From NCBI RefSeq assembly GCF_000311725.1, contig NZ_HE978511.1, positions 1,123,856 through 1,187,855 on the forward strand: 64,000 nucleotides of DNA, given 5' to 3'. The first letter of the stretch is position 1. Each line of letters starts with the position of its first letter. The stretch comes from Robertmurraya massiliosenegalensis JC6. Lineage in GTDB: Bacteria; Bacillota; Bacilli; Bacillales; Cytobacillaceae. A model generated the notes under the pieces. It worked only from the letters and a program-made list of their open reading frames with translations. It was not told the DNA's origin and did not search any database. Shown one piece after another: positions 6,689-16,940 of the stretch. A program made the position numbers and the translations under genes.

Positions 6689-6781
6689 TAGAAAAAGGGG
6701 TAAATCTGGTTATTATGTTCTCACCTTAATAGACGAATGAGTGGATAAAAAGTTTCAACTTTTTTTATTTCGTCACAAAAT

Positions 6782-6825
6782 AAAAAACGCAATACTTCGT
6801 TCTTTTCGATACGAAATACTGCGTT
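6782..6825 (-). terminator. Terminator after tRNA-Gly
   Basis: On the minus strand AACGCAGTATTTCGT pairs with ACGAAGTATTGCGTT and is followed by TTTTTTATTT, 11 bases past the tRNA CCA end. Confidence 0.85.
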
Positions 6826-6835
6826 ATATATGTAT

Positions 6836-6909
6836 TGGAGCGGGTGATGGGAATCGAACCCACGACAACAGCTTGGAAGGCTGTGGTTTTACCATTAAAC
6901 TACACCCGC
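6836..6909 (-). tRNA. tRNA-Gly (anticodon TCC)
   Basis: A 74-nt cloverleaf on the minus strand with encoded CCA. The acceptor stem is GCGGGTG paired with CACCCGC and discriminator T. The D arm has GTTTAATGGTAAAAC, the anticodon loop CTTCCAA gives TCC, and the T arm reads GTGGGTTCGATTCCCAT. Upstream in the same direction lie two 31-nt copies of its 5' half, and a canonical promoter sits before those. The gene itself is complete and should be functional. Confidence 0.95.
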
Positions 6910-7038
6910 ATTTTTATTGAGATAATATTTAATTTTATTCCCTTATTTTGGCCTTACATGCCTCTAACTCTTATAGCTAATTCGAGGATGCCTTGTCGTC
7001 GAGGCAACTCGTAGGGAATTCACAGATGCTTTCCTCGT

Positions 7039-7069
7039 GGCTGTGGTTTTACCATTAAACTACACCCGC
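7039..7069 (-). pseudogene. tRNA-Gly 5'-half copy 1
   Basis: These 31 nt are identical to nucleotides 1-31 of the functional tRNA-Gly: acceptor 5' strand, D arm and 5' side of the anticodon stem. Identity stops just before the anticodon loop, and no 3' half follows. It cannot form a cloverleaf. Confidence 0.85.
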
Positions 7070-7197
7070 ATTATATTATAAATTGTATTTTTTTAGTTTC
7101 CTTACTCTGGCCTTACATGCCTCTAACTCTTATAGCTAATTCGAGGATGCCTTGTCGTCGAGGCAACTCGCAGGATATTCTCGGATGCTTTGCTCGT

Positions 7198-7228
7198 GGC
7201 TGTGGTTTTACCATTAAACTACACCCGC
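7198..7228 (-). pseudogene. tRNA-Gly 5'-half copy 2
   Basis: A second identical 31-nt copy of the tRNA-Gly 5' half, 159 bases further upstream and nearest to the predicted promoter. As in copy 1, identity ends at the same base before the anticodon. Confidence 0.85.
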
Positions 7229-7280
7229 ACTAATTAGAAGGATTTAGTTTATTCTATTAGCAAAAGTTAGAACATAGAAC

Positions 7281-7309
7281 AATATATCACTATTTTTTTT
7301 GACCGTCAA
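7281..7309 (-). promoter_or_regulatory. SigA promoter for the tRNA-Gly repeat transcript
   Basis: On the minus strand TTGACG, a 17-base spacer, then TATATT. Transcription would begin near 7274, about 45 bases before the outer tRNA half, and would cover both half copies and the complete tRNA down to the terminator at 6782-6825. Confidence 0.65.
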
Positions 7310-16742: not shown

Positions 16743-16888
16743 GATTTCCTTCGGGGTCGGGTGCAATTCCCAACCGGCGGTGATGAGGTATAGCCTCTTA
16801 GTCCGTGACCCGGGTTCATTAATTTGAAAACGGTGGATTTGGTGCAATTCCAAAGCCGACAGTAAAAGTCTGGATGGGAGAAGGAATA
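16743..16888 (+). ncRNA. FMN riboswitch (RFN element)
   Basis: All conserved RFN blocks appear in order: CCTTCGGGGTCGGGTGCAATTCCCAACCGGCGGT, a variable hairpin, then GATTTGGTGCAATTCCAAAGCCGACAGT, GTCTGGATGGGAGAAGGAAT closing the basal stem. It senses FMN and controls the downstream ribDE-ribBA-ribH operon through a terminator at 16941-16971. Confidence 0.96.
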
Positions 16889-16940
16889 GATATTTGTTCA
16901 AAAAATGCTGTTTTTGACGCTTATTTGTGTTGCTTTTTTT

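Follow-up and report, generated by a model that had tools for sequence, protein, structure and literature searches.

The question raised by this locus is why a complete tRNA-Gly(TCC) gene should be preceded by two copies of its own first 31 nucleotides, and what the sequence lying between the copies is. The stretch of DNA analysed, called the window here, is 64,000 nucleotides long; the features concerned are collected in Table 1. Read along the minus strand from 7309 to 6780, they come in the order promoter-like site, tRNA piece, 128 nt, second piece, 129 nt, intact tRNA-Gly(TCC) and terminator. The original prediction described two identical copies of tRNA-Gly nt 1-31 within a repeat of about 159 bp, and both statements hold: the copies match the intact tRNA exactly, and the period is 159/160 nt, with the two units 91% identical over 141 nt. 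The pieces were also said to stop just before the anticodon loop; they end one base inside it (nt 31, where ARAGORN places the anticodon at nt 33). Each piece is followed by an element of about 80 nt, here called E and defined by comparison with relatives, and then by a tail of about 48 nt that is AT-rich and little conserved. Chance is excluded, since exact 31-nt repeats are found at the same place in many genomes.

Table 1. Features of the array in front of tRNA-Gly(TCC), in order of transcription (window coordinates)
Feature	Position	Strand	Evidence
SigA-type promoter-like site driving the array	7281..7309	-	10/12 matches; similar promoters 5' of orthologous arrays L044 and L046
tRNA-Gly 5' piece, copy 1, nt 1-31, ends AGCC	7198..7228	-	identical to 6909-6879
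Element E, copy 1, ~80 nt	7118..7197	-	covariance model match, 73.7 bits
AT-rich tail 1 = leader of next copy	7070..7117	-	tails 55% alike between genomes
tRNA-Gly 5' piece, copy 2, nt 1-31	7039..7069	-	identical to nt 1-31 of intact tRNA
Element E, copy 2, ~80 nt, helix TTGCCTC/GAGGCA	6959..7038	-	covariance model match, 77.5 bits; co-variation
AT-rich tail 2 = leader of intact tRNA	6910..6958	-	sequence
Intact tRNA-Gly (TCC)	6836..6909	-	ARAGORN; Rfam RF00005, 72.6 bits
Intrinsic terminator 3' of tRNA	6780..6825	-	fold, then U-run

The SigA-type promoter-like site described at the head of the array is present as TTGACG-17-TATATT, TG-extended (TG before the -10) and with a 17-nt spacer. Promoter-like sites number 7 against 6.1 expected in shuffles, so the main support for this one is its conservation in relatives. 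The terminator claimed 3' of the complete tRNA is confirmed as a strong rho-independent hairpin (fold of 6765-6835, -22.4 kcal/mol, z = -4.6), and orthologous loci keep the motif AACGCAGT..TTTCGT. The same genome carries three units before the tRNA-Gly(TCC) located after tRNA-His, one diverged unit before the tRNA-Gly located after tRNA-Pro, and a single unit before tRNA-Lys whose piece is GAGCCATTAGCTCAGTTGGTAGAGCA. Elsewhere in the window, an FMN riboswitch is recognized at 16743-16889 (+; 113.9 bits).

E has the consensus ACGAGC...GRRRCA (written also ACGAGC...GCGAGTTGYYYCGACGCA...AGAGGAAGRRRCA), and 305 distinct copies were collected. When genomes of the order were scanned with a covariance model, 116 of 299 proved to contain E, and these belong to 60 of 117 genera; a further 298 genomes sampled from the rest of the phylum contain none. 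The genome set is a sample, and the locus set comes from several tools, so that near-identical strains may have been counted repeatedly even though identical contexts were removed. Copy numbers range from 2 to 33 in eleven genomes assembled into few contigs. Genera with E units include Geobacillus, Parageobacillus, Anoxybacillus, Shouchella, Halalkalibacter, Alkalihalophilus, Cytobacillus and Halobacillus, among others. E is apparently an undescribed family of tiny insertions before many different tRNA genes. No description of it appears in Rfam or in the open literature searched (interrupted tRNAs, tRNA fragments, and repeats in these genera), which takes in few subscription journals. Rfam, at gathering and at relaxed thresholds, gives no family for the spacer, the matches being tRNA, rRNA, and sub-threshold chance hits or tRNA look-alikes.

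One feature of the fold stands out. A 6-bp helix closes the 3' half of E, pairing an internal TTGYYYC with the 3' end GRRRCA (alignment columns 35-40/80-85). Among 181 elements found without any pairing requirement, the triplets of this helix pair perfectly in 171, using seven triplet types; in 289 elements retrieved by sequence profile, its three pairs fill the first three ranks by mutual information, at 98-99% Watson-Crick. (Alignment A3, which underlies the pair counts and the covariance model, was chosen on pairing, and the co-variation tests are those on the 181-element and 289-element sets only.) Two hairpins suspected from single sequences did not survive this analysis: pair counts support them, like the other stems of E, weakly, and only the helix at columns 35-40/80-85 stands. 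Pairing between the tRNA piece and E was likewise considered and rejected, as piece and E show no co-variation. The preserved structured spacer of the original prediction needs correcting: what is kept is an element of about 80 nt with one co-varying helix, and as RNA the two window copies gain no stability over shuffles (z = -0.2 and +0.7). Intermediates in the helix are equally rare whether A-C (8) or G-U (9) in the 289 elements. From these two observations, A-C as frequent as G-U and ordinary RNA stability, it follows that the fold may be needed as DNA, and the alignments fit a requirement either as RNA or as single-stranded DNA.

The placement of E is narrow. A tRNA lies downstream on the same strand for 284 of the 305 elements, and those lacking one are mostly at contig ends or in palindromic repeats, with a few orphans beside remains of tRNA-Arg. 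The hosts include the tRNAs for Gly, Lys, fMet/Met, Thr, Asn, Phe, Arg, Ala, Asp and Val; counted in full, E occurs with 12 tRNA species, at about 20 tRNA/site combinations. With few exceptions, E is preceded by nt 1 to X (X = 12-31) of the very tRNA that follows intact, in the sense strand, and the nearest unit lies 22-67 nt (median 45) from that tRNA. The four bases 5' of E are AGNN in 286 of 305 cases (AG at -4,-3). Piece length takes only a few values per tRNA, nearly all ending at an AGNN within nt 12-31: 31 for Gly, 14 for fMet, 24 for Thr, 17 for Asn, Ala, Val and Asp, 17 or 26 for Lys, and 17 or 27 for Phe and Arg. AGNN sites in the 3' half of these tRNAs are unused by E. The suggestion that the duplications belong to an element inserting in tRNA genes is therefore supported, and generalized well beyond tRNA-Gly; the restriction to the anticodon arm falls, most sites being in the D-arm.

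Copy number, which the original prediction proposed to compare among relatives, does vary, with arrays of 1 to 8 units. Arrays are internally homogeneous and of varied length (eight Phe units at L156, four Thr plus four Lys at L081, three Gly at L007). Within one genome, elements before different tRNA types are about 76% alike, so that signs of recent bursts are confined to arrays and to the palindromic repeat described below. At the orthologous solitary tRNA-Gly locus, E occurs in several families and at about one third of the loci assessed, a patchiness compatible with repeated loss as well as with repeated gain.

The pieces follow their own tRNAs closely. Where a tRNA departs from the majority at a variant site, the base found in the piece is, in 67 of 69 cases, that of its own tRNA. 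Identity between genomes is 95% for Gly pieces, 74% for E and 55% for tails. Mismatches between piece and tRNA amount to 0.6% beside multi-unit arrays versus 2.8% in single units, and exchange within arrays would explain the identity. In Gly units with the 31-nt piece, 17 of 24 mismatches fall in nt 1-7, the end away from E (P = 7e-7); Met14 and Thr24 pieces show the same trend toward the tRNA 5' end, and Lys17 and Asn17 pieces do not. This gradient of conservation toward E suggests some selection as well, and it speaks against homogenization as the sole cause, which would predict poor correction at both edges rather than at the E-distal end. It also bears on the proposal that the half-tRNAs act as decoys for RNase P: in Gly, fMet and Thr pieces conservation is lowest in the acceptor strand, and fMet units contain just 14 nt of tRNA, both of which argue against a decoy.

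Tails and leaders record how a unit may arise. The leader 5' of the left piece corresponds to the leader of an empty locus (L235 compared with L080), and several tails end in a copy of the old tRNA leader (L245, L250, L297). In such examples the old leader precedes the interrupted piece and is often repeated in the tail that leads into the intact tRNA; tandem arrays, in which such copies are to be expected, supply many of the strongest ones. The tRNA units look like E plus a duplication of the leader and the 5' part of the tRNA. The idea that the tail is a decayed tRNA 3' half (look-alikes of Thr, Ile and Lys had been noticed) was dropped after a shuffle test on 178 tails gave a mean z of 0.1, and it is kept only for the first 1-8 nt. 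At one locus (L185, 445-760) E splits a tRNA-Gly at nt 31; the 3' half is still largely readable, and no separate intact copy precedes tRNA-Ile. This may be either an insertion intermediate or a deletion product. Orphan elements beside tRNA-Arg remains, with no intact tRNA downstream, occur at L097 (4280-4520; 3' half nearly complete), L311 and L078.

A second host allows the insertion to be seen without a tRNA. In genome G402 and in Litchfieldia (L079), E sits inside a GC-rich palindromic repeat unrelated to tRNA; G402 has 18 copies of the repeat. There the empty form reads CCCGCAGGA / GTCTACG and the filled form CCCGCAGGA / ACGAGC...GAGACA / GTATCTCTACG, a junction that is not fully clean, having extra bases at the right. 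Many empty copies in Evansella match the two flanks joined end to end, and the same flanks lie 78 nt apart at the filled copy (L116). E has thus entered this repeat almost precisely, immediately 3' of AGNN and leaving no long duplication of the target, and copies occur on either strand. The repeats, MITE-like and dispersed in the same Bacillaceae genomes, share no sequence relationship with E. They are abundant (42 places in Evansella vedderi, G625, and 18 in G402), with E in a minority of copies. In one of them, at L079 5316-5512, two opposite-strand copies of E flank a 38-nt GC-rich core.

The best explanation, to which we give even confidence, is that E is a non-autonomous mini-insertion element, amplified as cassettes by way of the duplicated tRNA 5' piece. 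E would fold as a single strand, its TTGYYYC pairing with its own 3' end GRRRCA and enclosing a hairpin. An enzyme acting in trans would insert it by a logic resembling that of single-strand transposons, in which a short left target is kept, nothing is duplicated and an internal sequence serves as guide. In tRNA operons, insertion would be linked to duplication of the leader and the tRNA 5' piece, so that the tRNA is rebuilt at the 3' end. Piece, E and tail would then make up a cassette, and recombination or replication slippage between the direct repeats would add or remove units to give the observed range. Exchange would keep the pieces identical to the tRNA because the last repeat belongs to the functional gene. 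A benefit to the host is possible and is not needed. Against this reading, no transposase was found linked to E, a scan of 11 genomes with the covariance model found no autonomous parent element, and mobility alone leaves the tight spacing to the tRNA unexplained. Somewhat more tentatively, the units can be described as gene-free mobile cassettes that use the 5' part of the tRNA gene they occupy as attachment sequence, or else as a widespread class of tRNA-operon RNA. Under the former description the fold of E would recruit the candidate enzyme, and a tRNA-identical piece would let units be gained, lost and moved between copies harmlessly.

The rival that survives best takes the piece together with E as a conserved functional RNA domain of tRNA operons (a tRNA mimic, a processing or attenuation element, or a small RNA freed by the enzymes that process tRNA) acting on the neighbouring downstream tRNA or in trans. 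We regard it as a serious possibility, though a minority one, and it earns that standing because copies are rarely decayed (low-scoring remnants are very few among the covariance model matches, which itself suggests selection in place), the orientation is sense in all tRNA cases, and the distance to the tRNA is fixed. It also agrees with the invariant core and its compensatory triplets, with a piece that is strongly conserved near E and tracks tRNA sequence changes, and with the occurrence of E in several families at the orthologous solitary tRNA-Gly locus. Against it, E is patchy, missing from 61% of genomes of the order and from most at that orthologous locus, and it is also inserted in intergenic palindromic repeats on either strand. 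The ordinary RNA stability of the window copies, helix intermediates with no preference for G-U and the absence of co-variation between piece and E also count against it, and the length of its tRNA portion changes from 12 to 31 nt with the tRNA.

Much less probable is that E is a true element of the REP or IS200-IS605 type, mobilized by a resident Y1 (HUH) transposase. In IS608, the target is kept at the left flank with no duplication, the hairpins are subterminal, and a guide near the right hairpin pairs with the right end (PMC5934647). E likewise inserts 3' of a short fixed target with no target-site duplication, and has two similar hairpin motifs and an internal sequence pairing with its right end, features described for IS608 guides (PMC5934647) and REP (PMC8266576); the co-varying TTGYYYC/GRRRCA may match the pairing of a guide with a putative right cleavage site. 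The tRNA units nonetheless carry a duplication of leader and piece, and E differs further in being about 80 nt with no ORF and in having its AGNN target mostly in tRNA genes. Y1 genes are found in 10 of 12 E-bearing genomes, but none of 30 Y1_Tnp loci has an E within 1.5 kb, and the gene is absent from two of the most E-rich genomes, G596 (33 elements) and G048. Y1 transposases were for this lack of linkage set aside as the current mobilizer, and E is better called a look-alike of single-strand elements than a member. REP sequences are short, palindrome-containing and interspersed, possibly non-autonomous and mobilized in trans (PMC8266576). Unlike REP and the REPtron (TnpA-REP, RAYT), E has its two hairpin motifs in direct orientation, lies in tRNA operons away from the Y1 genes examined, and has no conserved GTAG 5' of a palindrome in its consensus ACGAGC...CGAGTTGYYYCGACG. 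Weak Y1_Tnp matches, possibly TnpA-REP-like and with no E nearby, occur in E-bearing genomes at L339-L342, L346-L348, L351, L352 and L355.

Transfer RNA genes are common integration sites, and nine IMG/VR contigs matched the pattern, those inspected carrying units at tRNA loci near a contig edge, so the units might be minimal att arrays, the scars of tRNA-using phages or integrative elements. This is very unlikely. Integrating elements usually restore the 3' part of a tRNA, whereas these units repeat its 5' part. They contain neither integrase nor phage genes, no E was seen at the ends of integrase-encoding elements, E has no match in 50,697 phage records, and it occurs in palindromic repeats too. 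Neutral remnants of unequal tRNA duplication with no mobile element, an origin the original prediction entertained, would account for the tandem period, the copy-number variation and the decayed 5'-most units, and are just as improbable, contradicted by an 80-nt element that sits at AGNN in different tRNAs and in an unrelated repeat with empty copies, by the co-variation of its helix, and by pieces of fixed length per tRNA that follow their own tRNA.

Other known systems share single features with the mini-insertion element proposed here. Group I introns make precise insertions in bacterial tRNA genes (PMC3984707); E, at 80 nt, matches no Rfam intron even at relaxed thresholds, and the copy it interrupts is not rejoined, there being a separate intact tRNA. 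Integron cassette arrays resemble E units in consisting of tandem units each with an attachment-like repeat, and circular cassettes are imaginable here as well; E units differ in having no integrase and no gene, and in having the 5' part of the neighbouring tRNA as their repeat. Classical MITEs have a different architecture, as the ends of E, ACGAGC and RRRCA, are not inverted repeats and empty sites give no target-site duplication. With structured non-coding RNAs E shares compensatory changes, at three pairs in 289 elements.

A mobile E would illustrate how an element with no gene of its own can live inside genes that are essential; an E acting as RNA would mean that a widespread part of tRNA expression in Bacillaceae has been overlooked so far. 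The co-varying triplet offers an experimental handle, by breaking and restoring the helix, and empty and filled sites offer a direct assay for movement. The array of eight near-identical 155-bp units before tRNA-Phe (L156, and G480:C1:756072-757236) is suited to seeking changes in copy number. Plasmid matches of E are stretches resembling tRNA clusters, with no annotated gene under the match. The records that hold these stretches (L363-L365) bear plasmid labels, from Anoxybacillus amylolyticus and Geobacillus subterraneus, and the genes neighbouring one of them (hisD, cmpA and a SprT family gene) look chromosomal.
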